This document shows, piece by piece, positions 2,723 through 44,925 of a DNA stretch of 45,880 bases. A model generated the notes under the pieces. The model was given only the letters and a program-made list of their open reading frames with translations, had not been told where the DNA came from and ran no database searches. Origin of the DNA: Fibrobacter sp. (GTDB taxonomy: Bacteria > Fibrobacterota > Chitinivibrionia > Chitinivibrionales > Chitinispirillaceae); assembly GCA_012523595.1 (NCBI GenBank), contig JAAYIG010000103.1, positions 1 to 45,880 of the forward strand, read 5' to 3'. The first letter of the stretch is position 1, and every line of letters begins with the position of its first letter. The position numbers and the translations under genes were made by a program.

Positions 2723-2748
2723 TGTTCCGCTTTCTGGAACACTTTTTT
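2723..2748 (+). promoter_or_regulatory. Conserved palindrome TGTTCC-N7-GGAACA + CTTTTTT, copy 1
   Basis: TGTTCC (2723-2728) and GGAACA (2736-2741) form a perfect inverted repeat with a 7-base spacer, followed directly by CTTTTTT. The palindrome ends 124 bases before the CE1 start at 2865. The same element recurs at 9289 and 18299, each time before the first gene of a plus-strand gene run. Best read as an operator or activator site. It could also fold as a 6-bp hairpin plus T run, i.e. a small intrinsic terminator or attenuator. Confidence 0.6.
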
Positions 2749-2864
2749 GTGCTGTCCGTTGCAAATCCCCGCCACTAAAATCAAGTGTAGCTATATTAGA
2801 GAATATATGATCTGCTGATCTGCTACTGGGGGGAATGTCATCAAGGTTATTCGGGGGGCATTTT

Positions 2865-4694
2865 ATGGGTAAGTTATCAAGGTTATTTGTTTTTTCGCTG
2901 CTTCTTCCTGGAAGTATTCTTTCCCAGCAGGTCAATCAGACGTGGACCTTCAATGTAGGTGGCCTCACCCGGAAATCTATCGTGTATGTCCCGTCTGGAA
3001 TAAATAACCCGCCTTTACTGATTTCCATGCACGGAATGGGTATTCCTGCCAGTATGAACCAGGGAATGATGAAGTTTGAGCCGATCGCAGACAGGGAAAA
3101 GTTCATTGTGACATATCCTGAATCAGCTCCTGGCAGCGATCTGAGGTGGGATCTTGGAGGAGACAAAGATATCAAATTTATAGAGGCAATAATCGATTCG
3201 ATGGATAAACGGTTCAGCATCGATCGCAACCGGGTTTACGCATCCGGGTTTTCCATGGGCGGCATGATGAGTTACTATCTGGCCTGCAAGATCCCGGAGA
3301 AGATCGCGGCGATAGCTCCTGGATGCGGATACCCTCTTGGAGGCCAATCAGGATGCACAAAAACCCGTCCGGTGCCCATTTTTCACATCCATGGTACTGC
3401 TGATGATTTTGTTGCTTACAGCAATCTTCACAATTTTCTGAACAATAAAATCAGAGAGTACGGCTGTCCGCAGACAGCACAGAGAACAGAACCTTACCCT
3501 GTTTCAAACCCCAACTCAAAGTCTTTCAAGGAGTACTGGGGACCCTGTACCGATAATAACGGCATGACAAGTGAGATCACACTTATCTCTGTCACGGGTA
3601 TGATCCATGACTGGGCTACTCCCGGAAAGGCAAATGCCAATGATGATCCGGCTTTTAAGGGAAAACCCTTTGATGTGAACGGGAGTGAAGAAGCCTGGGC
3701 GTATTTAAAAACCCAGTCTCTGACAGGGGCAGGTTACCGTCTTGCAGTAAGTACAAGAGGACGGGGAGAGGTGACCAGGAGTCCTGATGAGAGCTATTAT
3801 AAAAAGGACACACAGGTGACACTCAAGGCCGAGCCCTCCGAGGGATGGGTTTTTGAAGGCTGGAGCGGTGATGCCAACGGGAATCAGAATCCATTGACTG
3901 TTACTATGAATTCGTCTAAATCGATTACAGCCAGTTTTGTCACTGAGGACGGAAAGAGGGATCTTGTCCTGAACGGCAATTTTTCATCCGGAACCGATCA
4001 CTGGACATTCAATAACTGGAGCGGAAAAGGTACAGGGAGTGTTGTTGATGGAGAGTACAGGCTAACAATCAGTGAAACCGGAAACAATTATTATGATATT
4101 CAGGTGGTTCAGCCGGGAATACTTCTTGAACAGGGTAAAGCCTACCGTCTGGTGTATGATGCTTATGCATCAGCAAACCGGGTTCTGAATATTAATGTAG
4201 GGATGCCGGTTGAGCCTTGGACAACATTTCTTACCAATGTTACCGATGGAGAGATAGCGGTCAACCTGACTGCATCAAAACAGACTTTCACACTTGATTT
4301 TATTATGGAAGAACCCACTTATGAGGATTCCAGAGTTGAGTTCAGTGCGGCAACTGCAACTCCATCTGTATACATAGACAATGTTTCACTCTATGAAATA
4401 CAACCGGTGGAAGTCTCTTTGAAGAGATCCAAAGGTGGAGTAAACAGCTTAAAAATCCGGAAAAACGGTTCTGTAATCAATTTTACATTCAATACTTCCG
4501 GAGCCGGCAGTGCAACTCTTGGCATTTATGATCTGAAAGGTAAAGTGGTGCATACTGAACATTTCAAGGCACATTCAGGATCGGTTCAGAGATTAAACCT
4601 TGAAACATCAGTAATACCTGAGGGTTACTACATTGCAAAAATCAGCCGCGGGAATACTGCTTTTGCAAAAGGGTTTGTGGTAACAGGCAGGTAA
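2865..4694 (+). CDS. Secreted CE1-type acetylxylan/feruloyl esterase with InlB-like repeat, CBM4_9-like domain and T9SS tail
   Basis: Serine esterase of the CE1/PHB-depolymerase-like alpha/beta-hydrolase group, expected to remove acetyl or feruloyl groups from xylan. I chose ATG 2865 (MGKLSRLF...) because it has a GGGGGG ribosome-binding stretch six bases upstream and begins a clean signal peptide; the in-frame ATG at 2835 adds ten residues and spoils it. Domains from 2865: esterase about 23-286 with nucleophile Ser130 in GFSMGG, HGTADD as likely acid loop and a GMIHDW histidine; InlB-type repeat about 292-362 (GWVFEGWSGD, NPLTVTMNSSKSITASF); CBM4_9-like sandwich about 366-512; sorting tail about 525-609. 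The repeat and CBM are very similar to those of the next gene. First gene of a three-gene run. Acetyl versus feruloyl specificity cannot be decided from sequence. Confidence 0.85.
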   Translation: MGKLSRLFVFSLLLPGSILSQQVNQTWTFNVGGLTRKSIVYVPSGINNPPLLISMHGMGIPASMNQGMMKFEPIADREKFIVTYPESAPGSDLRWDLGGDKDIKFIEAIIDSMDKRFSIDRNRVYASGFSMGGMMSYYLACKIPEKIAAIAPGCGYPLGGQSGCTKTRPVPIFHIHGTADDFVAYSNLHNFLNNKIREYGCPQTAQRTEPYPVSNPNSKSFKEYWGPCTDNNGMTSEITLISVTGMIHDWATPGKANANDDPAFKGKPFDVNGSEEAWAYLKTQSLTGAGYRLAVSTRGRGEVTRSPDESYYKKDTQVTLKAEPSEGWVFEGWSGDANGNQNPLTVTMNSSKSITASFVTEDGKRDLVLNGNFSSGTDHWTFNNWSGKGTGSVVDGEYRLTISETGNNYYDIQVVQPGILLEQGKAYRLVYDAYASANRVLNINVGMPVEPWTTFLTNVTDGEIAVNLTASKQTFTLDFIMEEPTYEDSRVEFSAATATPSVYIDNVSLYEIQPVEVSLKRSKGGVNSLKIRKNGSVINFTFNTSGAGSATLGIYDLKGKVVHTEHFKAHSGSVQRLNLETSVIPEGYYIAKISRGNTAFAKGFVVTGR

Positions 4695-4767
4695 TGCATC
4701 TGTGAAATAACCTGACTATATGAATAAACGAAATAAAGAACCTGAACAGAGAAATCAAAGGGTGACC

Positions 4768-7323
4768 ATGATGACTCCAAAAGTTTTCAAGAGATTTGTA
4801 TCTGCAGTGCTGTTAAGTGTCTTTACACTGTCCGCGGAAACAGTTCAAAACCCTGTGATCTGGGCTGATATCCCCGACCCATCTATTGTCAAGGTAGGCA
4901 GTGAGTACTATATGAGCTTCACGACCATGCATTTCGCTCCGGGTGTCCCGATCTTGAAATCCACAGATCTGGTCAACTGGCGCACTGTCGGATATGCCTA
5001 CAATACTCTTGTCAACAATGATCAGATGAATCTCAACAATGGTAAAGACGCCTACAGCAAGGGTTCCTGGGCAAGCAGTATCAGGTATAAGGACGGAACT
5101 TTTTATGTGCTGACTTTTTCTTACACTTCAAACAAAACCCATCTGTACTCGACAAAAGATGTGGAAAACGGTCCATGGAAAGAGGTTCAGATTTCTTCTG
5201 TATACCATGACCCATCCCTTTTCATGGACAGTGACGGGCGAAACTACATTGTTTACGGGGGCGGTGATATCCGCATAGTCGAGCTTAATTCAGATATGAC
5301 AGGACTTAAACAGGGCGGCCTCAACAAGATTCTTATCCCGAATGCTCATGGTCTGGTCGGAAATATAATTGTCAATGCTGAAGGTGCGCACATAGAGAAG
5401 ATAAATGACTGGTATTATGTTTTTCTGATTTGCTGGCCAAGTTCCGGCTACGATGGGCGAACGGTTCTGGTATACCGCAGCCGGACAATTGATGGTAAAT
5501 ATGAAGGAAAAGTTGCACACAGCAGCAAGGGTGTGGCACAGGGGAGCGTTATTCAGACAGAAGATGGTTCATGGTGGGGATATCTTTTCCAGGATAATGG
5601 TTCAGTTGGCCGGTGTCCATGGTTGATGCCTGTAACGTGGCAGAATGACTGGCCGGTTTTTAACGGTGGCGTTTCACCAACCTCATTTAATATACCTACT
5701 AATACTACGCCCGGAACAACAGGGGTTGTGACAAGTGATGATTTCAGTTCTTCGAAAATGAAGCTTGAATGGCAATGGAACCACAATCCCGACAATGCAA
5801 ACTGGTCATTGACGGAACGTCCGGGCTTTTACCGCATAAAAACCAGCCGGGTCGATGCAGGGGTGCTGAGAGCTAAAAACACCCTTACTCAGCGCAGCTT
5901 CGGACCTAAATGCTCAGGCCGCATTGCAATGGATGTATCCGGGATGAAGGATGGGGATGTCGCGGGTTTGTTAGCGCTTCAATACGAGTACGGATATGTG
6001 GGTGTCAAGAAATCAGGAACAAATCTTTCTGTTGTAATGGTCAACGCCAAATCAAGTAATCCCTCGGAGATTGCAAGTACGCCGATCAGTCAGAACCGTA
6101 TCTACCTGCGGATAGATATGGACTTTACCAACCGCAATGATAAAGCGACATTTTTCTACAGTCTTGACAGCCTGAACTGGAAGCAGATTGGAAATACTTT
6201 GCAGATGACTTATGATCTCAAGCACTTTGTCGGATACAGGTTTGGCCTGTTCAATTATGCCACAAAGAGCGTCGGCGGGTATGTGGACTTTGACTGGTTT
6301 CAAATCGGAAAAAATTACAACGATATAATGACCATTGATGAGTCATCAGGCTTGAAACTTTCCATAGGAAATGTTGGCCGGGGGACAGTGAACTGTTCAC
6401 CTGACAGTTCAAGCTATGAAAAGGGTACGCAGGTGACATTGACAGCAACTCCTGAAGCAGGGTGGGTTTTTGACAAGTGGACCGGTGATGCATCAGGTAA
6501 CCAGAATCCTCTGACTGTGACAATGAACTCGTCGAAATCGATCACAGCCAATTTCGTTACAGAGGATGGCAAACCGGATCTTATTGTAAACGGCAGCTTT
6601 TCATCAGGATCCAGTAACTGGACATTCAACAACTGGAGCGGAAGCGGCACGGGAAGTGTTGTAAACGGAGAGTACAGGCTCGATGTCAGTGAAGTGGCAA
6701 ACAATTACTATGATCTGCAGGTAGTGCAGCCTGGAATACTTCTTGAACAGGGCAAGACCTACCGTCTGATCTATGATGCCTATGCGTCAGCAAACAGAAC
6801 TCTTTTTGTAAATGTCGGCATGCCGGTCAGTCCCTATACTTCATTTTTGGGAGCAGATGGTGAGTCTATTGTAAATGGATCGCGTGAGGTTAATCTCACA
6901 ACATCAAAACAGACCTTTACACTTGAATTTACCATGGGAGAGCCAACTTACGAGGATTCCAGGGTAGAATTCAGCGTAGGAACCGCTACTCCTTCGGTAT
7001 TTATCGACAATGTGTCACTCTTTGAAATCATACCGGTAAAGATATCAGGACCTTATCTGAGCAGGGAAGCGAATCAGATGAGTGTACGTAAAAACGGATC
7101 TTTGATAAGTGTTTCTATTGCTGCCGAAGGACATGGTATTGTAACTGCAGATCTTTATGATCTCAGGGGCAATGTTGTGCGGAGTGCCGGTTTCAGAAAA
7201 GTTCCCGGTTCAGTCCAGAGGTTCAGTCTCAGTACTGCAGGGGTTCCCGGTGGTTACTATATATTGAAGGTCAATAACGGCAAAACAGTTTATAAATCAG
7301 GGATTGTACTGACCGGCAGATGA
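4768..7323 (+). CDS. Secreted GH43 beta-xylosidase/arabinofuranosidase-type enzyme with C2 domain, repeat, CBM and T9SS tail
   Basis: Five-bladed beta-propeller glycosidase that likely releases xylose or arabinose from (arabino)xylan. The start at 4768 has AAAGGG five bases upstream and opens a signal peptide; the ATG at 4720 has no ribosome-binding site and adds a polar 16-residue extension. ATG 4771 is equally possible. Catalytic residues fit GH43: base Asp in ADIPDPSIVKV, pKa-modulating Asp in YHDPSLFMD, acid Glu in NAEGAHIEK. Domains: GH43 about 22-320; concanavalin-like GH43 C2 domain about 321-510 (starts DDFSSSK, ends DFDWFQIG); InlB-type repeat about 531-598; CBM4_9-like about 603-754; sorting tail about 762-851. 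Follows the esterase after a short gap, probably one transcript. GH43 subfamily and exact specificity are not certain. Confidence 0.88.
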   Translation: MMTPKVFKRFVSAVLLSVFTLSAETVQNPVIWADIPDPSIVKVGSEYYMSFTTMHFAPGVPILKSTDLVNWRTVGYAYNTLVNNDQMNLNNGKDAYSKGSWASSIRYKDGTFYVLTFSYTSNKTHLYSTKDVENGPWKEVQISSVYHDPSLFMDSDGRNYIVYGGGDIRIVELNSDMTGLKQGGLNKILIPNAHGLVGNIIVNAEGAHIEKINDWYYVFLICWPSSGYDGRTVLVYRSRTIDGKYEGKVAHSSKGVAQGSVIQTEDGSWWGYLFQDNGSVGRCPWLMPVTWQNDWPVFNGGVSPTSFNIPTNTTPGTTGVVTSDDFSSSKMKLEWQWNHNPDNANWSLTERPGFYRIKTSRVDAGVLRAKNTLTQRSFGPKCSGRIAMDVSGMKDGDVAGLLALQYEYGYVGVKKSGTNLSVVMVNAKSSNPSEIASTPISQNRIYLRIDMDFTNRNDKATFFYSLDSLNWKQIGNTLQMTYDLKHFVGYRFGLFNYATKSVGGYVDFDWFQIGKNYNDIMTIDESSGLKLSIGNVGRGTVNCSPDSSSYEKGTQVTLTATPEAGWVFDKWTGDASGNQNPLTVTMNSSKSITANFVTEDGKPDLIVNGSFSSGSSNWTFNNWSGSGTGSVVNGEYRLDVSEVANNYYDLQVVQPGILLEQGKTYRLIYDAYASANRTLFVNVGMPVSPYTSFLGADGESIVNGSREVNLTTSKQTFTLEFTMGEPTYEDSRVEFSVGTATPSVFIDNVSLFEIIPVKISGPYLSREANQMSVRKNGSLISVSIAAEGHGIVTADLYDLRGNVVRSAGFRKVPGSVQRFSLSTAGVPGGYYILKVNNGKTVYKSGIVLTGR

Positions 7324-7349
7324 TTCTGAAAGGGAAAGAGACTGATAAT

Positions 7350-9125
7350 ATGAAAACAGGGAAATTTATTGGTTGTAAAAGGGTTTTATTTGCAGGACTA
7401 ATCTGTTTGTTAGTCCCTGCGGGTGATGCACAGACTCTTATCGACTATTTTCTTCCGATGCCGATTGTAAAGCCTCTCAGATCAGACAAATGGGGTTGTG
7501 CAATGACAGGGAAGAGGGACATTGGTAATGGCCTTGAAGATACAACCAACAGGTCATTCAGTTACTGGGATGGACCGATAATAAAGGGGCCGGATGGGAA
7601 GTATCACATGTTTGCGAGTCGCTGGAACCAGAATGGTGGTCACTGGGCATGGCTGTCTTCTGTAGGGATCCATGCAGTAAGTGAATCCATAATGGGTCCA
7701 TACGTTGATAAGGGGTTGACATGGCCTCACAATGACGGTGGAAAGGGCCACAATATGACCATCTTACAGCTTAAAGACGGAACCTATGCATCAGTTGTCA
7801 GTGATACCCGCCCCGGAGATTTCTTTACGGCTCCGTCGCTTGATGGGCCGTGGAGTTTTGCCGGTTCAATCAGTATAGACGCCAATGGGTTCAGCCGTCC
7901 AAGGGAAATCGCAAACCTCAGCATCATAATCCGCCCAGATGACGGTAAGTTTATGATTATAGAGCGCCACGGACAGATCATGACCAGTGATAAGCTTACC
8001 GGGCCCTACAAGGTCCAGTGTAATTCCATTTACAGCGGGCTTGCGCCAAATCTGGAAGATCCGGTTTTGTGGTACAGTGGCGGGTATTATCATGTGGTTG
8101 TTAATTCATGGAGTGATAAAAAAGCTTATCACCTCAGGTCAAAGGACGGTATAAGAAACTGGACAAATGAAGGCCTGGCATTTGATCCGAGATCAAATTT
8201 TCTGCGTTACACCGATGGAACTGTCAACAGGTGGACAAAGATAGAACGTCCCGGAGTTTACATCGAAAACGGGCATATCACACACTGGACGTTTTCTGTG
8301 ATTGATTCTGAAAAAGAGCAGGATCAGGGTAATGATGATCATAACAGCAAGGTTATCGTTGTGCCTTTTGATGGTGTGTCTTTTGACGGAGTCACTATCC
8401 CTGAGCACAGGGATACGGTATATAATGGTAAATTTGATGCCGGGAAAATTGGATGGACTCTCAATGTCTGGGGAGGAAGTGCCACAGGTGATGTGATAAA
8501 TGGTGAATACAGGACTATAATTTCAAGTCTTGGAAACAACAATTACGATATTCAGCTTGTGCAGTCAGGACTTATTCTCCAGCAGGGCAAAAACTACCAG
8601 GTGTCATTTGATGCTTATGCAGCATCAGAGAGAATCCTGGAGGTAAATGTGGAGATGGAGAAAGATCCCTGGACAAGTTATCTTGAAGAACTGGAAACGT
8701 TCAATCTGACTACTGTCAAAAAAACCTGTTCCTTTACTTTCAAGATGGAGCATCCTACCGATTCAAGCGGACGGCTCGGGTTTAATTTTGGCGCGTCGAC
8801 AGGGACGGTGTACCTTGACAATATCTCAATCCAGCAAGCTACCGGAAATATGATTGCTTCAGGGAACCGCAGGATCAGATTAAAACCGAGAGTCGCTTAT
8901 GCAAACGGCTCACTTGGAATCAAGTATGGCCCGGTTCCCGGTGTCCGCTTGTCTGTTGATTTATTTGATTTGAAGGGAAATGTTGTTAAAAGCGGAAATC
9001 TGCAATCCGTTTCAGAAAATACCTGGACTTATGACCTCTCCTCGGTACCTTCTGGAATCTATGTTGCCGGAATAAGAGCAGAGGGGAAAATACTCAGCAG
9101 TACCAGATTCCTGCATCGGAATTGA
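7350..9125 (+). CDS. Secreted GH43-like beta-propeller glycosidase with CBM4_9-like domain and T9SS tail
   Basis: The catalytic part (about residues 30-350) has the blade pattern of GH43/clan-F-type five-bladed propellers: SYWDGPIIKGPDGKYHMF, RHGQIMTSDKLTGPYK and NLEDPVLWYSGGYYHVV. It is distant from classical GH43, so the reaction is uncertain; arabinosidase or galactosidase activity on hemicellulose or pectin side chains is the best guess. A CBM4_9-like domain follows (about 357-495), then a sorting tail (about 510-591, VDLFDLKGNVV then VPSGIYVAGI). Unlike its two upstream neighbours it has no InlB-type repeat. ATG 7320 overlaps the previous stop (ATGA), which suggests translational coupling, but ATG 7350 gives a normal signal peptide (MKTGKFIGCKRVLFAG) and has a purine-rich stretch upstream. 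Confidence 0.72.
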   Translation: MKTGKFIGCKRVLFAGLICLLVPAGDAQTLIDYFLPMPIVKPLRSDKWGCAMTGKRDIGNGLEDTTNRSFSYWDGPIIKGPDGKYHMFASRWNQNGGHWAWLSSVGIHAVSESIMGPYVDKGLTWPHNDGGKGHNMTILQLKDGTYASVVSDTRPGDFFTAPSLDGPWSFAGSISIDANGFSRPREIANLSIIIRPDDGKFMIIERHGQIMTSDKLTGPYKVQCNSIYSGLAPNLEDPVLWYSGGYYHVVVNSWSDKKAYHLRSKDGIRNWTNEGLAFDPRSNFLRYTDGTVNRWTKIERPGVYIENGHITHWTFSVIDSEKEQDQGNDDHNSKVIVVPFDGVSFDGVTIPEHRDTVYNGKFDAGKIGWTLNVWGGSATGDVINGEYRTIISSLGNNNYDIQLVQSGLILQQGKNYQVSFDAYAASERILEVNVEMEKDPWTSYLEELETFNLTTVKKTCSFTFKMEHPTDSSGRLGFNFGASTGTVYLDNISIQQATGNMIASGNRRIRLKPRVAYANGSLGIKYGPVPGVRLSVDLFDLKGNVVKSGNLQSVSENTWTYDLSSVPSGIYVAGIRAEGKILSSTRFLHRN

Positions 9126-9161
9126 TTGGGTTTACGGTATACCCTTATTGTATGCATTTTT

Positions 9162-9181
9162 CCGGGATCTTCGGATCCCGG
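9162..9181 (+). terminator. Perfect UUCG-capped hairpin after the first enzyme run
   Basis: CCGGGATC-TTCG-GATCCCGG is an 8-bp perfect stem closed by a C(UUCG)G tetraloop, 36 bases after the stop of the propeller enzyme. A T run lies before it rather than after it, so it may mark or protect an mRNA 3' end more than act as a classical intrinsic terminator. It supports ending the first transcript here. Confidence 0.55.
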
Positions 9182-9288
9182 AATAGTTCCCGACAGCCCA
9201 AATTTAAAAGTCACTTCTGAAATTCTCTCCTTTTCACATACCCGGGCCTTTAATCCTGGTTACCAAATATCACCCCTTCAGGGCTCAC

Positions 9289-9313
9289 TGTTCCAGTTTA
9301 TAGAACACTTTTT
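9289..9313 (+). promoter_or_regulatory. Conserved palindrome TGTTCC-N7-AGAACA + CTTTTT, copy 2
   Basis: Same element as at 2723 with one mismatch in the right arm (AGAACA), spacer AGTTTAT, followed by CTTTTT. It ends 89 bases before the GH30 start at 9396. The spacer keeps the central TTT of the other copies. A -10-like TATAAC lies near 9370, about 60 bases downstream, which would suit an activator or operator upstream of a promoter. Confidence 0.58.
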
Positions 9314-9395
9314 ATCCTCCATCCTCGGTTATTCACCGCATCTGGGCTGTTTATCCTTAAATTATTAAAATATAACACTATAAACAGGGATTCTT

Positions 9396-11630
9396 ATGGG
9401 AACAAAGTCGATGTTTAAACGCTTGATTTTCGTTGGGTTGACGGTTTTTTCCACTGGATTGGCATCTCAATTATCTGCAGGTGATTGTACCGTGCAGTTC
9501 GAGGATGTCCAGCAGAAGATGACCGGTTTCGGGGGATCGACGGCATGGGCCGGGGGATTGGCCGATAATCTGATAAACGATCTTTTCTCACCCACAGATG
9601 GGTGCGGGTTGACACTGATGCGGATGAGGATAGCTCCCAACGGGACAACCGGGCAGGGTGAGATAAATATTGCCAAAAAAGCCCAGGCACTGGGTGCCTC
9701 TATCTGGGCTGCTCCCTGGTCTCCACCGGCTGAGTGGAAGGATAATAACAACGTAAATAATGGCGGAAGTCTTCTGCCGTCACGTTATCAGGACTGGGCA
9801 GACCGGCTTGTAAACTATGTAAAAAATCTTCAATCTCAGGGAGTTGATCTGAAATGGATTTCAGCGCAGAATGAGCCTAACTGGACGGCTGATTATGAAT
9901 CCTGCAGGTATACCCCTGAACAGCTTGCAACCTTTGTAGGGGATTACCTTGGGCCATCACTTGAAAGAGCAGGATTAAAAACCAGGATAATAGCGCCTGA
10001 AGTCATTAACTGGGGATCGCTCAAGCCCTACGGTGATGCCTTGTTAAACAGTCCAAATGCAATGAAATACTGTGATGTAATTGCAACACACTCTTACGGT
10101 GATGAACCAACTGCTTCAAGGGGTTTCCCCTATAATCTGGTAAGAGAAAAAGGTAAAGAACTCTGGCAGACAGAGTATGGCTTCGATCAGTTTGCCGGTG
10201 ATGAATCGATGACTCCCGGTATTGCAATTGCAAAACAGATGCATGGTCAGATTGTAAATGGTCCTGTCAGCGCTTACCACACATGGTGGATTATTCCGGC
10301 GGATGGGGTAAACGGAACTGCATCAAACGGGCTGGTGATGAGGGGGCATGTGATACAGCGCGGTTATGTGATGGGCAACTACAGCCGGTTTGTGAGACCG
10401 GGCTCCTACCGGGTTACAGCAAATCACAACCCATCAAATGGAGTATATGTCACTGCATATCGCAATGATTCTCTCGGACAATTGACAATTGTGGCAATAA
10501 ATGAGAATACTTCTGCAACAGAACAGAGATTTGTACTTAACGGCGTATCTGTTCCTTCTGTGACTCCGTGGGAGACATCGGATGCTGTCAAACTGACAGC
10601 CCGCAGCCAGGTTACAGCGGGAACGAGCTTTTCCTGGAGACTTCCGGCAAAGAGTGTGGTAACGTTTGTCGGGTACTATGCTTCGGGTATACGCCTCAGC
10701 ATTCAGACTGTCGGCAATGGAACTGTAAGCCGAAATCCTGATAAGTTTGCTTTTGAAGAGGGAGAAACCGTTACCCTTACGGCTCAGCCGCAGACCGGAT
10801 ATGTTTTTGCCGGCTGGAGCGGTTCCGGATTGAGCGGGAATGAAAATCCGATAACTATAACGATGAATGAGGATAAAGCGATTACTGCGTTATTTGTACG
10901 CGGTACTGCAGACGGCAATCTGGTGCTTAATGGTGATTTCAGTTCCGGTTCAGAAGAATGGACTCTCAATACCTGGGGCGGAAGTGCATCCGGGAGTGTA
11001 GTGGATGGGGAATATCGGATAAACATTGAGAGTACAGGAACAAATTCTCATGATATTCAGCTTGTTCAGCCGGGTCTTTACCTTGAAAAGGGCAAGACCT
11101 ATGTGGTAAAATTTGATGCGTATGCCGCATCAGAGAGGTCGCTGGAAGTGAATGTAGAGATGAAGGATGAGCCGTGGACAAGCTATCTGCCGCAATTGCA
11201 GCATTTTGATCTGACGACGACAAAGCAGACTTTTACCTTTAAATTCACAATGGAGCATCCGACGGATATCGCCGGCCGTATTGGATTTAATGTCAGTACC
11301 TCCACTGCGACTGTTTTTATCGATAATGTGTCAGTTAAGGAATTTGATCCCACATCGCTCTATTATGTCAGCCGCATCAGGAACTCTTCTATTAATGTAA
11401 ACTGTAGAAATTCTCTGTTGAGAATAGATATGGGAGATTTCAGAAACGAAAAAGCCTCGTTGGATATCTTTGACCTGAAGGGGAAAGTTGTAAAGTCCAC
11501 AGTGCTACGGACAAGAACAGGTGAATCAGGCAGTTTAGATCTGTCTGCTCTGCCATGCGGATTTTACGTTGTCAAAGTCGGAGTTGAAGGAAGCATAGTA
11601 CATGCTTCGAAAATATTACTGACGAGATAG
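9396..11630 (+). CDS. Secreted GH30 (subfamily 8-like) glucuronoxylanase with InlB-like repeat, CBM4_9-like domain and T9SS tail
   Basis: Endo-acting retaining xylanase expected to cut beta-1,4-xylan near glucuronic acid branches. The start (VQFEDVQQKMTGFGGSTAW), APWSPPAEWKDN and QNEPNW blocks resemble GH30_8 enzymes. Acid/base Glu160 lies in SAQNEPNW and nucleophile Glu260 in LWQTEYGF. The catalytic barrel plus its side beta domain run from about 25 to 428. Then come an InlB-type repeat (about 431-503), a CBM4_9-like domain (about 508-650) and a sorting tail (about 665-744). The signal peptide is MGTKSMFKRLIFVGLTVFSTG with cleavage after SQLSA or nearby. First gene of the second run, preceded by the shared palindrome. 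Whether it strictly needs glucuronate (the arginine pocket of GH30_8) I cannot confirm by eye. Confidence 0.87.
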   Translation: MGTKSMFKRLIFVGLTVFSTGLASQLSAGDCTVQFEDVQQKMTGFGGSTAWAGGLADNLINDLFSPTDGCGLTLMRMRIAPNGTTGQGEINIAKKAQALGASIWAAPWSPPAEWKDNNNVNNGGSLLPSRYQDWADRLVNYVKNLQSQGVDLKWISAQNEPNWTADYESCRYTPEQLATFVGDYLGPSLERAGLKTRIIAPEVINWGSLKPYGDALLNSPNAMKYCDVIATHSYGDEPTASRGFPYNLVREKGKELWQTEYGFDQFAGDESMTPGIAIAKQMHGQIVNGPVSAYHTWWIIPADGVNGTASNGLVMRGHVIQRGYVMGNYSRFVRPGSYRVTANHNPSNGVYVTAYRNDSLGQLTIVAINENTSATEQRFVLNGVSVPSVTPWETSDAVKLTARSQVTAGTSFSWRLPAKSVVTFVGYYASGIRLSIQTVGNGTVSRNPDKFAFEEGETVTLTAQPQTGYVFAGWSGSGLSGNENPITITMNEDKAITALFVRGTADGNLVLNGDFSSGSEEWTLNTWGGSASGSVVDGEYRINIESTGTNSHDIQLVQPGLYLEKGKTYVVKFDAYAASERSLEVNVEMKDEPWTSYLPQLQHFDLTTTKQTFTFKFTMEHPTDIAGRIGFNVSTSTATVFIDNVSVKEFDPTSLYYVSRIRNSSINVNCRNSLLRIDMGDFRNEKASLDIFDLKGKVVKSTVLRTRTGESGSLDLSALPCGFYVVKVGVEGSIVHASKILLTR

Positions 11631-11704
11631 GTTCGTACAGGTTGTATTTAAGCGTAAATTGATCACAGGAATAATACATCAGTAACCGTAAAAGGGAGTA
11701 TCAA

Positions 11705-14014
11705 ATGATCTCAAAGCGTTCAATCAATCCGGGATTGCTTTTACTAGTAATAGTGGCAATACAGACAGCAACGGCAGACAATTCGATTATCACTCATAAG
11801 TACACAGCCGACCCCAATGCCATGGTATGGAATGACAGGGTTTATGTGTTCTGTTCCCGTGATGACAATAACGGGGAGGGTTACGATATCATTGATTACA
11901 CCCTTATTTCATCGGATGACATGGTGAACTGGACTGATCATGGAGAAGTTTTCAGAGTACCAAGGGACGCTTCATGGGCAAACCGCGCTTACGCACCGGG
12001 AGCTGCCCACAAGAATGGTAAGTTTTACCTTTACTTTCCTGATGGCGGTTCATCGATAGGTGTCGCAGTTGCAGACAAAATAGAGGGTCCTTATAAAGAT
12101 GCAATAGGCAGAGCTCTTGTAAATAAAAGCATGCCAAACTGTAATGTGGAGTGGCTTTTTGATCCTGCCGCTTTTATCGATGACGACGGGCAGGCTTATC
12201 TCTATTTTGGAGGAGGCGGATCGACTCCTGGAACAAACCTGCGGGTAATAAAACTGGGCGATAACATGATTTCCACGGATGGAACCGCTGTGACTATCAG
12301 TGCCCCGCGTTCCTTTGAGGCTGCCTTCATGCATAAAAGGAATGGTATTTACTACTTCTCGTACTCTACCGATTTCAATGGCAGTTCAGCCAGAATCGAT
12401 TACATGACAAGTAACAATCCCATGACCGGTTTTCAGTATAAGGGGATTATTCTGGATAATCCCTCTGTGAACGGTAAAAACATTAATATGGGTAACAACA
12501 ATCACGCCTCTGTTGTAGAATTCAAGGATAAGTGGTATGTGTTTTACCATGAACGAAGGGTATCGAATCAGGTTTACAAAAGAAGCGTAAGTGTTGATCT
12601 GGCTGACTATAATGCTGATGGCACAATGAAGAAGTCTGCCTGCACCGATAATGGTCCTCCCCAGATTAAATATCTTAATCCCTATGACACTGTACAGGCT
12701 GAAACTATTAATCGGCAATCAGGTATAAAAACTGATGTGTGCAGCGAGGGCGGGATAATGGTTACCTCCATTTCCAATAACGATTATATTCGTGTCAAGG
12801 GAGTGGATTTTGGTGATGGTGCGGAGAAGTTTGAAGTGCGGGCCGCAAGCGGTTCATCGGGCGGTTCAATCGAACTGCGGCTTGGCAGCCAGACAGGGAC
12901 TCTTGTTGGAACCTGTAATATCACGGGAACAGGTGGCTGGAGCACCTGGAAAACCTTTGAATGTGAGGTCACCAACTGCAGCGGTGTAAAGGATCTCTAT
13001 CTGGTTTTCAAAGGATCTGGTGAGCCTTTCAGACTCAACTGGTACCGTTTCAGTGGGCCTTCAGGGTATTTGCTTTCAATCCAGATTGCTGGGAAGGGTA
13101 CAGTGAGTCGTTCTCCGAACAGATCCAGCTTTCCGGAAGGTACATCAGTGACACTCACTGCAGAGCCCAATGATGGATGGGTGTTTGATAGTTGGAGTGG
13201 TGATGGGGTAAGTGGTAACCAGAATCCACTTACTATAACCATGAATGGTGACAAGGCTGTCACTGCAGTTTTTAAACGCAATACTATTGATGGTAACATT
13301 GTGTTTAATGGAGATTTTGCATCAGACGCAGATGACTGGACGTTTAATACCTGGAGCGGCTCTGCTACAGGGGGGGTTGTAAATGGAGAGTATAGAATAG
13401 GGATCAGCAGTGTAGCTGAAAACAGCCATGATATCCAGCTTGTGCAGTCTGGGCTTTATCTGGAAAACGGGAAGACCTACCAGGTGGCTTTTGAGGCCTA
13501 TGCTGCTTCCAGCAGGTCTCTTGAGATAAATGTAGAGATGGATGAAAGTCCGTGGACAAGTTATCTGCCTGAACGGAAGAATTTCAGCCTTACTACGACA
13601 AAACAGGAATTCTCCTTTGTGTTCACGATGGAGCATCCGACAGATGCAAATGGCCGTATAGGATTCAATGCAGGGCTTGAAACTCCGGCAGTTTTTATCG
13701 ACAATGTAAAGGTAAAAGAATTCAGTGTGGCAACTGTTTCTTCCCCTGCAGTGGTACAATCATCAGGTGTGAAAGTAAACTGCAGTAATTCGGTTCTGCA
13801 CCTGGAATTTACATTACCGGAAAACGGACCGGTTTCTCTGAACCTTTATGATTTGAAGGGAAAGATGGTAAAGAGTATTGCGGTTCAGAAAAGATCAGGC
13901 ACAGTGTATTCCAACAGTTTCGATCTGTCGGGTATAAGTGAAGGATCTTATGTTCTGAAAATCAGAAGTCAGGGGAAGACAATCGGCAGCTCAAAAGTAT
14001 TGCTGGTAAAGTAA
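11705..14014 (+). CDS. Secreted GH43 arabinoxylan arabinofuranohydrolase-like enzyme with CBM6, repeat, CBM4_9-like domain and T9SS tail
   Basis: Probably removes arabinose branches from arabinoxylan or acts as a xylosidase. GH43 propeller about residues 25-315: base Asp in KYTADPNAMVW, second Asp in LFDPAAFIDDDG, acid Glu in RSFEAAFMHK. It is followed by a CBM6 (about 328-449, starting VQAETINRQSG and ending RLNWYRF), an InlB-type repeat (about 455-525), a CBM4_9-like domain (about 528-672) and a sorting tail (about 685-769, LNLYDLKGKMVK). The GH43-CBM6 order is that of XynD-type arabinoxylan arabinofuranohydrolases. AAAGGGAG lies just upstream of the start. The gap from the GH30 gene is 74 bases with no evident terminator, so co-transcription is likely. 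Two different binding domains plus a repeat make this the most modular enzyme here. Confidence 0.86.
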   Translation: MISKRSINPGLLLLVIVAIQTATADNSIITHKYTADPNAMVWNDRVYVFCSRDDNNGEGYDIIDYTLISSDDMVNWTDHGEVFRVPRDASWANRAYAPGAAHKNGKFYLYFPDGGSSIGVAVADKIEGPYKDAIGRALVNKSMPNCNVEWLFDPAAFIDDDGQAYLYFGGGGSTPGTNLRVIKLGDNMISTDGTAVTISAPRSFEAAFMHKRNGIYYFSYSTDFNGSSARIDYMTSNNPMTGFQYKGIILDNPSVNGKNINMGNNNHASVVEFKDKWYVFYHERRVSNQVYKRSVSVDLADYNADGTMKKSACTDNGPPQIKYLNPYDTVQAETINRQSGIKTDVCSEGGIMVTSISNNDYIRVKGVDFGDGAEKFEVRAASGSSGGSIELRLGSQTGTLVGTCNITGTGGWSTWKTFECEVTNCSGVKDLYLVFKGSGEPFRLNWYRFSGPSGYLLSIQIAGKGTVSRSPNRSSFPEGTSVTLTAEPNDGWVFDSWSGDGVSGNQNPLTITMNGDKAVTAVFKRNTIDGNIVFNGDFASDADDWTFNTWSGSATGGVVNGEYRIGISSVAENSHDIQLVQSGLYLENGKTYQVAFEAYAASSRSLEINVEMDESPWTSYLPERKNFSLTTTKQEFSFVFTMEHPTDANGRIGFNAGLETPAVFIDNVKVKEFSVATVSSPAVVQSSGVKVNCSNSVLHLEFTLPENGPVSLNLYDLKGKMVKSIAVQKRSGTVYSNSFDLSGISEGSYVLKIRSQGKTIGSSKVLLVK

Positions 14015-14053
14015 ACCGTTTTTATACAGAGAAAAACTACCGTGATCTTATTT

Positions 14054-14095
14054 GTATCTGAATATCTGCGTTGATAACGCAGGTAATTCAGATAC
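14054..14095 (+). promoter_or_regulatory. Long two-part hairpin in the leader of the GH30 galactanase-like gene
   Basis: Outer arms GTATCTGAAT (14054-14063) and ATTCAGATAC (14086-14095) are perfectly complementary. Inner arms CTGCGTT (14066-14072) and AACGCAG (14076-14082) close on a GAT loop, separated by a small AT/GTA internal bulge. It lies 21 bases before the start codon, just ahead of the AGGAG ribosome-binding site. No T run follows, so it looks more like a leader regulator, an mRNA processing or stabilising hairpin, or an operator than a terminator. Confidence 0.55.
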
Positions 14096-14116
14096 ATCTA
14101 TTTAGGAGTAAAAAAA

Positions 14117-16306
14117 ATGAAAAATATGCAGAATAGAAGAGAAGCAGTGTATGTTTGTTCAATGCTTCTTTTTCTACTGTTGTTCGGTAATGCCGAAGCT
14201 GTAACAGTTACAGTGAATCCAGGGGTGCGGTATCAGGAATTCGAGGGTTGGGGTACTTCGATCTGCTGGTGGGGGAATATTATTGGTAAATATCCTGATC
14301 AGGCCCGGGATTCCATTATGGATTTGTTGTTCGATACCTCAAATGGTCTGGGACTTTCCATAATCCGCTACAATATTGGCGGCGGTGACAATCCATCACA
14401 TAACCACATGGGAGTGGGAAAGATGATGGATGGGTTCAAGGCAGGTGAAAATGCCCAGTATGACTGGACAAAAGATGCAGGGCAAAGGTGGGTTGTCAAT
14501 GCGGCAAAGCAGCGTATTCCATCGGATTGGTTTATTGCCGAAGCTTTCTCAAATTCTCCTCCGTACTGGATGACCGTAAGCGGATGCGCATCAGGCGGAT
14601 CCGGAGGGAGCAATAACCTTAAAAGCGGGTATTATTCACAGTTTGTGGATTATCTAACTACGGTTGTAAAGCATTTCAACGATGAATGGGGAATTTTTTT
14701 TCGTACACTTGAACCAATGAATGAACCGGATAATGGATGGACGGTGAACGGTGCGCAGGAAGGGTGTTCTTTTTCGCATGAGAATCAGGCCAAGCTGATA
14801 CTGGAGGTGAAAAAACAGTTGGATGAGAAGCAGTTGTTAACAAAAATATCCGCACCGGACGGAGCATCGTATGGGTCTACGATCGCTGCTTACAACTCAT
14901 ACAATGCGAATGTCAAATCCTGCATTTACCAGATCAATACACATGGGTATTTCGGGGGCAGCCGGACGGATTTGCTGGCTCTGGCACAGAGGGACGGCAA
15001 GAAGCTCTGGGCATCTGAAATAGACGGCAGTGGAGCCGAGTATCCTTTTGACCAGTGGACACATAATCATAACGACATAGTTCCGGGTCTTGATATTGCA
15101 AATCGCATAATCAGGGATCTGAGGGATTTAAAGGCAGAGGCCTGGATTACCTGGCAGGTTGTCGAGAGCGAACAGGCTCAGACCAGTGTTAACAAAAATT
15201 GGGGCTGTATTCATGCAGACTTTACCGGGGGAAACAGGTACTATATCACTAAAAAATACCATGCGATCCGTCAGTTCACTTCCATTATCCGTCCATTCTC
15301 CAGGATGATCCGTATTGATAATAATGATGCAGTTGCCTTTCTCTCTCCTGAGCAGGACCGGCTTGTCATCGTTCAGAGAAATGCTGGTAACAGTGCTGTT
15401 ACTTTTGACTACAATTTGTCAAATTTTCAGCAGGTCGGACCAAAAGTGTCTGTGTGGAGAACTTCTGCGACGGAAAATTTCCAGAAATTAGATGACTTGA
15501 CTGTTGTGAACGGAACGCTGTCAACCTCATCATCGCCAAAATCTATTACAACTTATGTGATACCCATACAGCGTGGAGCAGCCGGTAACCTCGTGACTAA
15601 CGGTGATTTCAGTTCAGGATCTGCCGGTTGGACTTTTAATGCCTGGAGCGGTTCCGGAACCGGAAGTGTTGTCAATGGAGAGTATAATATCAGTATTGGA
15701 AGTCCTGCTTCAAGAAGCCATGATATCCAGCTTGTTCAAAACAGCCTTTATCTGGAAAAAGGAATGAGTTACCGGGTTTCATTCGATGCATACTCTTCTG
15801 TAAACAGAACTCTTGAGGTCAATGTGCAGATGGGGAGTGATCCCTGGACAAGCTACCTGTCCCAATTACAGCAATTTGATCTTTCTACAGAAAAACAGAA
15901 ATTCTCCTTTACATTTAAAATGGAGGGTCAGACAACCGACAGAGGACAGATTAGCTTCAATGCCGGTTTGTCTGCCGGTACAGTTTTCCTTGACAATGTA
16001 TCGGTGGAGGAGATTGATCCCACAGGGATACAGTGCGTGAGGAATACTGTAATGCGTTCTCCTGTGAATGTCAGAATTAACAATTCGATGTTGGAAATAG
16101 AGTTCACAGGATCTGAAAAAGACGCGTCTTTGAAGTTATTTGATATTAAGGGTACTTTGGTGAAAACCTTCGCTATTAAGTCCGGGAATGGCAGATATTA
16201 TTCAGAGAGCTACAATTTATCAAATATGCCGGCTGGATATTATTTGGCAAAGATTAGTTCCGGAAAAAGCGTTCTCCATACATCAAGGATAATGCTGGTA
16301 AAGTAA
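14117..16306 (+). CDS. Secreted GH30 endo-beta-1,6-galactanase-like enzyme with CBM4_9-like domain and T9SS tail
   Basis: Retaining GH30 hydrolase of the group with FEGWGTSICWW and RYNIGGGD blocks, which contains endo-beta-1,6-galactanases; likely acts on beta-1,6-galactan side chains of arabinogalactan or pectin. Acid/base Glu203 is in EPMNEPDNGW and nucleophile Glu301 in KLWASEIDG. Catalytic plus side beta domain about 30-487, CBM4_9-like about 491-634, sorting tail about 650-729 (LKLFDIKGTLVK then MPAGYYLAKI). No InlB-type repeat, unlike the two genes before it. AGGAG lies 10 bases before the ATG. A second enzyme of this family is encoded at 39694 on the other strand with different accessory domains. 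In a xylan setting another GH30 activity is possible. Confidence 0.82.
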   Translation: MKNMQNRREAVYVCSMLLFLLLFGNAEAVTVTVNPGVRYQEFEGWGTSICWWGNIIGKYPDQARDSIMDLLFDTSNGLGLSIIRYNIGGGDNPSHNHMGVGKMMDGFKAGENAQYDWTKDAGQRWVVNAAKQRIPSDWFIAEAFSNSPPYWMTVSGCASGGSGGSNNLKSGYYSQFVDYLTTVVKHFNDEWGIFFRTLEPMNEPDNGWTVNGAQEGCSFSHENQAKLILEVKKQLDEKQLLTKISAPDGASYGSTIAAYNSYNANVKSCIYQINTHGYFGGSRTDLLALAQRDGKKLWASEIDGSGAEYPFDQWTHNHNDIVPGLDIANRIIRDLRDLKAEAWITWQVVESEQAQTSVNKNWGCIHADFTGGNRYYITKKYHAIRQFTSIIRPFSRMIRIDNNDAVAFLSPEQDRLVIVQRNAGNSAVTFDYNLSNFQQVGPKVSVWRTSATENFQKLDDLTVVNGTLSTSSSPKSITTYVIPIQRGAAGNLVTNGDFSSGSAGWTFNAWSGSGTGSVVNGEYNISIGSPASRSHDIQLVQNSLYLEKGMSYRVSFDAYSSVNRTLEVNVQMGSDPWTSYLSQLQQFDLSTEKQKFSFTFKMEGQTTDRGQISFNAGLSAGTVFLDNVSVEEIDPTGIQCVRNTVMRSPVNVRINNSMLEIEFTGSEKDASLKLFDIKGTLVKTFAIKSGNGRYYSESYNLSNMPAGYYLAKISSGKSVLHTSRIMLVK

Positions 16307-16343
16307 ACAGGGTTGTACCCATGTTCATCAGGAAATAGGCAAA

Positions 16344-18164
16344 GTGAGAAAAGTCAATATATGTCTCTGCTGTATTCTCTTTATGCTCTGTACTGCAGCA
16401 TACTCCCAGGATCCCGATTTTCACATCTATCTCTGTTTCGGGCAGTCTAACATGGCAGGTGCTGGGACGATAGAGGCTCAGGACAGGACTGTTGACAGCC
16501 GCTTTCAGATGATGGAACCGATTGGATGTACGAATCTAAGCAGGACTTTCGGGAAATGGTATCCTGCTGTCCCACCACTCTGGGGATGCAATGGCGGTCT
16601 TGGACCGGCTGATTATTTCGGCAGAACGATGGTGGAAAACCTGCCTGCCAACATAAGAGTGGGTGTAATAGTCGTCGCAATACCGGGTTGTGACATAGCA
16701 CTGTTTTTTGAGAGCGGATATGAAGGGTACGATACCTATAATTATGTTCCGCAAAGGTATGGAGGGAGTGCGTACGCCTGGTTGCTTGATCTGGCTAAGC
16801 TTGCACAAAAGGATGGCGTGATAAAGGGAATTTTACTGCACCAGGGAGAAACAAATAACACCCAGAAGGACTGGCCTCAGAAGGTTAAGAGAGTATATGA
16901 TAACTTTATAAGAGATCTGGGATTGACTGCAGCGGAAACACCGCTTCTTGTAGGTGAACTGCTCTACCAGAATAAGGGAGGTGTATGCTGGGGGCACAAC
17001 AGTGTCATCGAAACCGTTCCCAGTGTAATACCGAACTCGCATGTCATTTCTGCTGAGGGGCTTCCCGGAAAGGATCAGTTTCATTTCAATACGGAAGGCA
17101 ACCGTCTGTTTGGAATTCGTTATGCACAGAAGATGCTGACATTGCTTGTTTTAGATAATAATGATCCTCCAGAAGTCAGCATTAGTTCACCTTATGATAA
17201 CAGCAGTTTTTCTTCACTTGAGACAGTTACAATTGAAGCCAGTGCTTCAGATCCTGACGGAAGTGTTGAATGTGTGAAATTTTATGACGGTTCGGTTTTT
17301 CTGGGAAGTGACAGTGCTGCCCCGTACAGTTATCAATGGTCTGGCATGAATGCAGGGACACACAGTATTACTGCCGAAGCGATAGATGACAAGGGGCGAA
17401 AGGGTGTTTCAGATCCGGTTTCTGTCATTATCGAGGCAGTTCAGGGGCCTTACAAGGGTACGGCTCACGCTATACCCGGGCGTATAGAAGCAGAGGAGTA
17501 TGATCTGGGTGGTGAGGGTATTGCTTATCATGAGGCAAATGCAAATGGCAATGAGGGCAATGCTGCTTTCAGAAATGATCAGGTTGATATAGAGGCAACT
17601 GCCGATGAATCGGGTGAATACAATATCTGCTATATTTTACAGGGTGAATGGCTTGAGTATACAGTCGATATAGCATTGACAGGGAAATATGACATTGCTT
17701 TGCGTGTGGCTGCTGATGGTGATGGGAAAAGGATGCATATTGAGATCGATGGAGTGAATATCACTGGTTCAATAGAAGTGCCCAATACCGGGGGATGGCA
17801 GACCTGGACTACTGTTACTGTAAAGGATATCGATCTTGTACAGGGGCAGCATGTAATGCGTGTCGCTTTTGATGCCAACTATATGAATCTGAATTATATG
17901 GAATTTACGAATACATCGACGGCGTTAAGGAAAAAGGACAGATCGCCAGTTAAGCTCTCTCCGGTTGTTTTTTCAGATGAGGGGTTTCAAATCAGGACAA
18001 ATGGTCAATTTGACTACCGGATTACATCAATAAATGGCACCTTATTGGAAAGTGGAAGCGGGAATAGAATAAAGAATACAGGGATTGGGCTTTCTCAGGG
18101 TATTTATATACTCCATATCAGAAATTCAGGGGGTATTTATACCCGGAAAATTCTCAAGAAATAG
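16344..18164 (+). CDS. Secreted CE6-type acetylxylan esterase with Ig-like domain, CBM6 and T9SS tail
   Basis: SGNH-type serine esterase that removes O-acetyl groups from xylan. Starts with GTG (16344); AGGAAA lies just upstream and the reading gives a clean signal peptide (MRKVNICLCCILFMLCTAAYS). Nucleophile Ser35 is in CFGQSNMAG; the GILLHQGETN block and the DQFHFN Asp/His end of the catalytic domain fit CE6/sialate-esterase-like proteins (about 26-270). A bacterial Ig domain (about 274-365, PPEVSISSPYDNS), a CBM6 (about 372-524, ending NLNYMEF) and a sorting tail (about 540-606) follow. The CE6-CBM6 pairing is known from Fibrobacter acetylxylan esterases. Last gene of the second run: the next 255 bases contain the third copy of the palindrome. 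Confidence 0.85.
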   Translation: MRKVNICLCCILFMLCTAAYSQDPDFHIYLCFGQSNMAGAGTIEAQDRTVDSRFQMMEPIGCTNLSRTFGKWYPAVPPLWGCNGGLGPADYFGRTMVENLPANIRVGVIVVAIPGCDIALFFESGYEGYDTYNYVPQRYGGSAYAWLLDLAKLAQKDGVIKGILLHQGETNNTQKDWPQKVKRVYDNFIRDLGLTAAETPLLVGELLYQNKGGVCWGHNSVIETVPSVIPNSHVISAEGLPGKDQFHFNTEGNRLFGIRYAQKMLTLLVLDNNDPPEVSISSPYDNSSFSSLETVTIEASASDPDGSVECVKFYDGSVFLGSDSAAPYSYQWSGMNAGTHSITAEAIDDKGRKGVSDPVSVIIEAVQGPYKGTAHAIPGRIEAEEYDLGGEGIAYHEANANGNEGNAAFRNDQVDIEATADESGEYNICYILQGEWLEYTVDIALTGKYDIALRVAADGDGKRMHIEIDGVNITGSIEVPNTGGWQTWTTVTVKDIDLVQGQHVMRVAFDANYMNLNYMEFTNTSTALRKKDRSPVKLSPVVFSDEGFQIRTNGQFDYRITSINGTLLESGSGNRIKNTGIGLSQGIYILHIRNSGGIYTRKILKK

Positions 18165-18298
18165 TTAGTGTGAAGTAGTTTTGCCAATACCCGTTTTAAT
18201 TGTGGTTCTGCGGGTGAATGAAGAGTACTGTCCATGCAGGATGCTCAGATAATCCCAGGAAAAACCCCATCTTTACATCTAATACTAAATTTTTGCTC

Positions 18299-18325
18299 TG
18301 TTCCGGTTTACGGAACACTTTTTTT
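18299..18325 (+). promoter_or_regulatory. Conserved palindrome TGTTCC-N7-GGAACA + CTTTTTTT, copy 3
   Basis: Perfect TGTTCC/GGAACA arms, extended here by an inner G:C pair (spacer GGTTTAC), followed by CTTTTTTT. The palindrome ends 103 bases before the start of the beta-helix protein at 18420. AT-rich -10-like stretches lie at about 18358 and 18376. The only other content I see in the 255-base gap is AT-rich leader sequence; no convincing separate terminator is visible. Confidence 0.6.
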
Positions 18326-18416
18326 GCCGCATTTACTGAAATTTACTGTTATTGATCTAATATTCGTTAAATTAATAGATTAGACATTCTGATTTTCCGG
18401 AAATCCAAGGGGCATA

Positions 18417-18434
18417 TTTATGCATATGCATAAA
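18417..18434. other. 18-bp perfect palindrome over the GH141-like start codon
   Basis: TTTATGCATATGCATAAA reads identically on both strands and covers the ATG at 18420 and the in-frame ATG at 18426. It could be a protein-binding site or a start-codon-masking hairpin. About 0.2 such palindromes would be expected in 46 kb by chance at even base composition, so it may be coincidental. Confidence 0.35.
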
Positions 18435-21332: not shown

Positions 21333-21335
21333 GAC

Positions 21336-21364
21336 GTGAATAATGATTGGCATTGAGTTATAAT
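21336..21364 (+). promoter_or_regulatory. Possible internal promoter before the cytochrome module
   Basis: TATAAT at 21359-21364 is a consensus -10 hexamer, with a poor -35 (GTGAAT) 17 bases upstream. It lies in the 66-base gap between the beta-helix gene and the HzsA-related gene. If active, the cytochrome module would have a start site of its own in addition to read-through from 18420. Confidence 0.3.
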
Positions 21365-21398
21365 TTGAACTATAGAGGAAAAAAAAGGGAGAAAGAAG

Positions 21399-24131: not shown

Positions 24132-24162
24132 TAACAGAAAAAGCGGCAAGCCAGGGTGTAAA

Positions 24163-26867: not shown

Positions 26868-26884
26868 TAGAATCGGAGAGCCCA

Positions 26885-29403: not shown

Positions 29404-29427
29404 TCTCCCGTTGTATGATGTAACTGT

Positions 29428-44708: not shown

Positions 44709-44818
44709 TTTATCATCTCCTTTTAAAGGCAGGTTTCATGATTATTAAAGGTACAATGAATAATATATGAGTTTAAAGGAGCAAAATCCGGGGAATTTAG
44801 GGGGTTCTTTAACAATGT

Positions 44819-44835
44819 GTATACAAATTGTATAC
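44819..44835. promoter_or_regulatory. GTATACAA-A-TTGTATAC operator-like palindrome upstream of PL11
   Basis: A perfect 17-bp palindrome, 110 bases upstream of the minus-strand PL11 start. A further TTGTATAC half-site lies at 44903-44910. The core resembles sites bound by GntR-family regulators of sugar-acid genes, which would suit a pectin enzyme. This is pattern recognition only; no regulator gene is in the window. Confidence 0.45.
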
Positions 44836-44925
44836 AATACACTGCGTAATTGATTGAAATATAAGAGGTTAGATTTAATTAAGGATGATATAAGAGATAG
44901 TTTTGTATACAGGTGTTCAGTTGCA

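Follow-up and report, generated by a model that had tools for sequence, protein, structure and literature searches.

Palindromes before fibre-degradation gene runs of a Fibrobacter sp. as probable operators of a TIGR02147/DUF4423 regulator

Three palindromes in a 45,880-nucleotide stretch of a Fibrobacter sp. genome (contig JAAYIG010000103.1, hereafter the window) are very probably operators of a TIGR02147/DUF4423 protein, most likely the one encoded at C241:25050 on another contig of the same genome, which would activate the three gene runs behind them by a class-I mechanism from a position near -71. What we observe are the sites themselves, their restriction to certain genes, their phase relative to a -10-like word, their conservation before orthologues of the candidate regulator, and the co-variation of half-site and recognition helix across the family.

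The initial annotation of the window described TGTTCC-N7-GGAACA at three positions, followed by CTTTTT and with TTT at the centre of the spacer. The palindrome is exact at 2723 and 18299, but the copy at 9289 has AGAACA as its right arm. CTTTTT is seen directly 3' of all three, and a fourth copy is indeed absent (none at up to one mismatch in a search of the whole window). The spacer TTT is present in all three window copies but is not a general rule, as spacers elsewhere are GAATA, TAAAA or N8. The distances from palindrome to start codon, given earlier as 124, 89 and 103 nt, are 93, 88 and 102 nt in our analysis; 124 nt is the distance to an internal ATG at 2866 in run 1, and the earlier figures hold with that later ATG. 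The pattern TGTTCCNNTTTNNNGAACA has four matches in the 4.1-Mb genome, three of them inside the window, and none in the reversed control.

Table 1 Features of the window and of related sites and genes elsewhere in the genome (E values are from the site+promoter model)
Feature	Position	Strand	Remarks
Operator 1	2723-2741	+	TGTTCCGCTTTCTGGAACA (TGTTCC-GCTTTCT-GGAACA), then CTTTTTT; E 9e-13
-10-like TATATT	2792-2797	+	Inferred promoter element; starts 50 nt after operator 1
Run 1	2835-9125	+	3 genes
Esterase-like CBM4_9 protein	2835-4694	+	Run 1
GH43 + GH43_C2 beta-xylosidase-like	4720-7323	+	Run 1
CBM4_9 protein	7320-9125	+	Run 1; catalytic part without family assignment
Operator 2	9289-9307	+	TGTTCCAGTTTATAGAACA (TGTTCC-AGTTTAT-AGAACA), then CTTTTT; E 3e-14
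-10-like TAAATT	9358-9363	+	Starts 50 nt after operator 2
Run 2	9396-18164	+	GH30, GH43-CBM6, GH30_2, SASA acetylesterase-CBM6
Operator 3	18299-18317	+	TGTTCCGGTTTACGGAACA (TGTTCC-GGTTTAC-GGAACA), then CTTTTTTT; E 1.8e-15
-10-like TAAATT	18368-18373	+	Starts 50 nt after operator 3
Run 3	18420-32365	+	Co-transcription inferred from short gaps and overlaps
GH141-like/CBM6 protein	18420-21332	+	Run 3
HZS_alpha-domain cytochrome c	21399-24131	+	Run 3
Secretion-tail protein	24163-24999	+	Run 3
YncE-like/CCP_MauG protein	24996-26867	+	Run 3
Protein without family assignment	26885-28210	+	Run 3
RidA-like	28210-29403	+	Run 3
ResB	29428-30501	+	Run 3
CcsA-type cytochrome c assembly protein	30449-32365	+	Run 3
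Operator TGTATAC-AATTT-GTATACA	44818-44836	-	TGTATACAATTTGTATACA; -10-like word 50 nt downstream
Candidate regulator gene	C241:25050-25910		TIGR02147/DUF4423
Palindrome copy	C241:24793		Left arm CGTTCC
Palindrome copy	C241:27815		
Palindrome copy	C241:33439		N8 spacer
Palindrome copy	C241:35768		
Palindrome copy	C241:37762		N8 spacer
Palindrome copy	C139:39230		
Phased palindrome	L054:4862	-	Before GH10
Phased palindrome	L055:1754	-	Before GH43
Phased palindrome	L348:2578	-	Before GH43
Phased palindrome	L058:2809	-	Before 911-aa ORF
Phased palindrome	L055:4116	-	Before GH30

A genome-wide motif scan, which had been proposed as the check between operator and terminator, favours an operator. Using a model of the palindrome plus 60 nt downstream (the site+promoter model), 8 full-length sites were found in 4.1 Mb at E<=6e-10, all preceding CAZyme runs or TIGR02147 genes. 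Beyond these there are partial or weak matches, one of which (C55:1110, E 0.009) lies directly 5' of a GH43 gene. Outside the window there are six recognisable copies (contig C241 has five, C139 one), in uniform orientation relative to the next gene. The genes that follow them encode GH43, GH44 and an esterase-like CarboxypepD_reg protein, as well as the TIGR02147/DUF4423 proteins at C241:25050 and C241:37870.

The main reason for reading the palindromes as activator sites, and not as terminators or repressor sites, is the fixed phasing of the -10-like word. Of 61 family sites, 47 have the word beginning 39-41 or 49-51 nt downstream and none has it at 44-46 nt, against a mean of 4.7 and a maximum of 13 phased sites under a rotation null. 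This set is biased to the spacing, as the sites of relatives were partly found with a model that includes the -10. A set selected on the palindrome alone is free of this bias; among its 39 TIGR02147 upstream regions, 14 have the word at 39-41 nt, 16 at 49-51 nt and 0 at 44-46 nt. Unlike this spacing, the distance from operator to start codon is variable, ranging from some 64 to 342 nt. Counting the first T of the -10 as -12 (no start site has been mapped) would place the operator centres near -61 and -71. The arrangement meets the class-I criterion of a site upstream of the -35 on a fixed helical face, in steps of about 10 bp; here the -10 served to infer where the start lies. Class-I CRP promoters of E. 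coli are alike in having a two-fold symmetric site of about 20 bp near -61.5 or -71.5 and in not using the off-phase position, with strong activation at -61.5 and -71.5 and none at -66.5 (PMC6301791).

Two other readings of the region were set aside. A sigma-54 reading of GGAACACTTTTTTTGC was rejected by eye, as the GG-to-GC spacing is not N10 and varies among copies. As to an RNA element, the window has no match to 4227 Rfam families at gathering thresholds, and the palindrome precedes the inferred promoter, so that it would not form part of the RNA.

The genes behind the three operators include esterases, xylanases and a cytochrome module, and their link through a shared regulator, as first proposed from the window alone, is supported by the genome scan, the fixed -10 and the conservation in two relatives. 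In G001 the palindrome, the GH141-like gene, the cytochrome, RidA-like and ResB genes occur in the same order, with extra genes inserted; in G008 a site (C117:61696) precedes a GH141-like gene whose end adjoins the cytochrome gene. Since the arrangement of palindrome, GH141-like gene and cytochrome is kept in both genomes, the cytochrome link is no accident of the window. It is unexpected that a c-type cytochrome operon should apparently share its control with xylanases. Relatives of the cytochrome of this operon (21399-32365) are found in 10 of 25 other genomes searched.

Both proteins on C241 clearly belong to TIGR02147: they score 270.8 and 269.2 bits, where the curated cut-off is 50, over positions 3-271 of 272. 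The same palindrome is present upstream of the orthologue of the 25050 gene in the Fibrobacter-like genomes G001 (locus L087, 86% identity), G008 (L088, 78-79%), G010 (L089, 77-78%) and G025 (64%), and in G001, G008 and G010 it also precedes GH10, GH27, GH30, GH43-like and GH141-like genes. When 60 genomes were searched with the model, full-length matches were obtained in the own genome, G001, G008 and G010, while G005 and G025 gave one match each, that of G025 directly before the orthologue. The own genome has two TIGR02147 paralogues with TGTTCC sites, one N7 and one N8. The second (37870) and its orthologues have the N8 version of the palindrome, and the 25050 protein is the better candidate because the three window sites are N7. 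Spacer length and the relatives are the grounds for assigning it to the window.

The N-terminus of the regulator is predicted to adopt a Cro/C1 (XRE) helix-turn-helix fold, a resemblance of fold only. Because the full-length AF2 model was poor (pLDDT 54), the fold search was limited to the N-terminal domain, for which the first 110 residues were modelled at pLDDT 86.5 (from five sequences). The leading Foldseek matches were HigA, GraA, C proteins, SinR and DdrO, with probabilities up to 1.00 and E >= 0.1, and in VIA-align most rows were Cro/C1-type DNA-binding proteins, with Z up to 8.4. Given these E and Z values, the fold call rests also on the co-variation described below and on weak Pfam matches (HTH_3, E 5.6e-4; HTH_26, E 6.5e-3; single members, below the curated cut-offs). 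A sequence search of solved structures yielded designed helical proteins and further chains unrelated to the regulator, but no relative.

Across the family, half-site and recognition helix vary together, consistent with the helix determining the half-site; this support is statistical and not biochemical. In the 31 genomes where the family was matched, it has 2 to 46 copies each. The set analysed comprised 176 distinct TIGR02147 genes for which upstream DNA was available, drawn from the own genome and some 30 relatives. A perfect TGTnnn-N4..8-nnnACA palindrome occurs within 300 bp upstream of 40 of the 176 (degenerate palindromes were not counted), compared with a mean of 1.3 and a maximum of 6 after shuffling and 2 in the reversed control. 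That most of the genes are without a perfect copy weighs against the reading. Of the 64 triplets, TGT ranks first. Identity in the HTH is correlated with the half-site (Mantel r=0.48, 0 of 2000 permutations), whereas r is 0.05 for the spacer and 0.16 for the flanks. The half-site is shared by 13 of 13 pairs at HTH identity >=75% and by 65% of pairs at 60-75%. The top co-varying residues (S47, D53, Q59, Y51, G49 and I48) lie in or beside predicted helix 3. Relatedness inflates the Mantel test, and phylogeny was handled only by simple weighting (effective n 31), so the counts are strong support and not proof.

The half-site TGTTCC is found with the helix GIRSIGLYKDVVDGKQSL, TGTTCT with SSGLYKE, TGTTCG with NSSGLYKDIVDGRTGI, TGTTTT with SAGFFSNILQGKRNIS and relatives, TGTATC with SPVFLKLVIDGKRNLG, TGTACT with SPSLYQEVVEGRRNLT and TGTTGT with KARDHIMRVMNG. 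The helix INSPSFLK and near variants go with TGTATA, TGTGTA and TGTACA. At one locus (L085:2388-2406) the palindrome TGTATTC-N5-GAATACA is located between divergent genes, one for a TIGR02147 protein and the other a 168-aa ORF, with a phased -10 on both sides (50 and 41 nt).

Operators of other types occur in the same genome. The minus-strand site at the far end of the window (Table 1) is 109 nt before the ORF of a PL11 rhamnogalacturonan lyase (42000-44708), and its arms are identical to those of a palindrome upstream of the TIGR02147 gene C213:4183 (L066). Stretches of the own genome totalling 318 kb were scanned for TGTnnn palindromes of any kind (up to one mismatch) with a phased -10, which gave 21 listed sites versus 3 in the reversed control, where perfect-arm sites numbered 0. 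Apart from TGTTCC sites and sites upstream of TIGR02147 genes, the list contains the PL11 site of the window and several others: TGTTGAAC...GTTCAACA precedes a GH10 gene and a similar palindrome a GH43 gene, TGTTGAG...CTCAACA is found before GH43 and before a 911-aa ORF, and TGTACA...TGTACA before GH30. As palindromes of other types precede PL11, GH10, GH43 and GH30 genes, the data suggest that different TIGR02147 paralogues serve different polymers.

The regulator genes also have a recurrent neighbour. Downstream sequence was sufficient for 75 TIGR02147 genes, and in 68 cases a same-strand ORF comes next within 150 nt, usually with a 4-nt overlap. Nearly all of these 68 partners look secreted, with a signal-like N-terminus, a cysteine, GG.ET.N and a CarboxypepD_reg-like start; the strict lipobox pattern fits 28 (an example of a partner gene is L055:5917-7578). 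Pfam gave DUF2341 in both C241 partners scanned, together with LamG in one; the other is truncated at the end of the locus. CarboxypepD_reg is also seen among the C241 examples. That the partner acts as a sensor is a guess.

Binding, activation and inducer are inferred, without binding, expression or transcript-start data. A dimer of the regulator would bind the palindrome through its N-terminal Cro/C1-type helix-turn-helix. With the end of the operator 50 bp before the -10 and its centre near -71, the bound protein would sit where a class-I activator does, on the same face of the helix, and would most likely recruit RNA polymerase. Its targets would be the three operons of the window, at least six other promoters, mostly of xylan/arabinoxylan CAZymes, and its own gene (autoregulation).

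The same operator and regulator could instead serve repression, for example through a DNA loop or by hindering an activator bound upstream, with relief by xylo-oligosaccharides. Cro/C1-type proteins are often repressors, and autoregulation is compatible with either sign. We nevertheless consider this unlikely: the sites keep to two discrete helical positions ahead of the promoter, without overlapping the -35/-10 or the start, and the second copy that a loop would call for is not seen at the window promoters. Far harder to sustain is the idea, raised in the initial annotation, that the palindromes are intrinsic terminators of the preceding runs, to which we give almost no weight. Each is followed by a T run, and copies 1 and 3 score as terminator-like. 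However, the folds are weak (-6.8, -2.2 at 9289, and -10.1 kcal/mol), whereas stronger hairpins of -20.4 and -18.1 kcal/mol are present nearer two of the preceding stop codons, as that annotation had stated, and the sites are 134-188 nt past the stop. The criterion of a stable GC-rich hairpin with a U run is not met, and the T run is often absent at paralogues. A phased -10-like word downstream and co-variation with a DNA-binding protein would not be expected of a terminator; conservation extends to the sequence of the palindrome, and not just to a stem, and this sequence differs according to the HTH of the regulator encoded next to it.

An unlinked transcription factor could instead control both the CAZyme and the TIGR02147 genes; direct binding data are absent. 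Two genomes fit such a factor and count against the regulator proposed here. In G005 a complete TGTTCC-N7 site, together with a phased promoter word, precedes a gene for a 201-aa secreted protein (G005:C327:17214, L115), but a close orthologue of the 25050 protein was not found there. G017 is the reverse: its 76% orthologue (G017:C245:50090; L140, L090) has the same recognition helix, but there is no palindrome in the 900 bp upstream, and the genome has no convincing site, only one-mismatch near-matches without a phased -10 word. We regard this reading as improbable, as it leaves unexplained why the half-sites of paralogues track their own recognition helix.

The reading preferred here, class-I activation by the TIGR02147 protein, has only partial parallels in known systems. 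The regulator differs from CRP in its predicted fold, which is Cro/C1 and not winged helix, and in its paralogue-specific half-sites, and no match to a cyclic-nucleotide domain was found in it. It resembles the Cro/C1 (XRE) proteins HigA, GraA, DdrO and SinR in the predicted fold of residues 12-97, with the HTH in helices 2-3, and in its short palindromic operators. In contrast to these proteins, its C-terminal half is DUF4423, without a solved relative by sequence, and its site is upstream of the promoter and not over it; where HigA and GraA have a toxin partner, TIGR02147 has a signal-peptide protein. In Bacteroidetes, polysaccharide utilisation is regulated by SusR, hybrid two-component systems and ECF sigma/anti-sigma pairs. 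As with TIGR02147, there are numerous paralogues there, each of which seems to go with one set of polysaccharide genes, and a surface or secreted partner is encoded alongside; no match to sigma factor or histidine kinase domains was found in the TIGR02147 proteins scanned.

The family (NCBIfam TIGR02147, Fsuc_second; Pfam DUF4423) was previously without an assigned function. In the open-access literature we found no publication on TIGR02147 and one on DUF4423, a Bdellovibrio proteome table that gives no role; titles and abstracts there yielded no paper on a regulator of fibre-degrading genes in this lineage. Our contribution is a named protein with an exact operator, a promoter geometry and target genes; the candidate regulator and the family-wide code are new beyond the earlier annotation. 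On balance, we lean towards the wider view that the many TIGR02147/DUF4423 proteins of Fibrobacterota and relatives are sequence-specific activators, each with its own TGTnnn-N4..8-nnnACA operator read by a helix-3 code, with autoregulation and with a dedicated secreted or surface lipoprotein that senses a polysaccharide, forming a many-channel network for the control of plant-fibre degradation. With the table of half-sites and recognition helices, the operators, and thereby the target polysaccharides, of many paralogues would become predictable. If true, this many-channel network would follow another logic than the SusR, hybrid two-component and ECF systems of Bacteroidetes.
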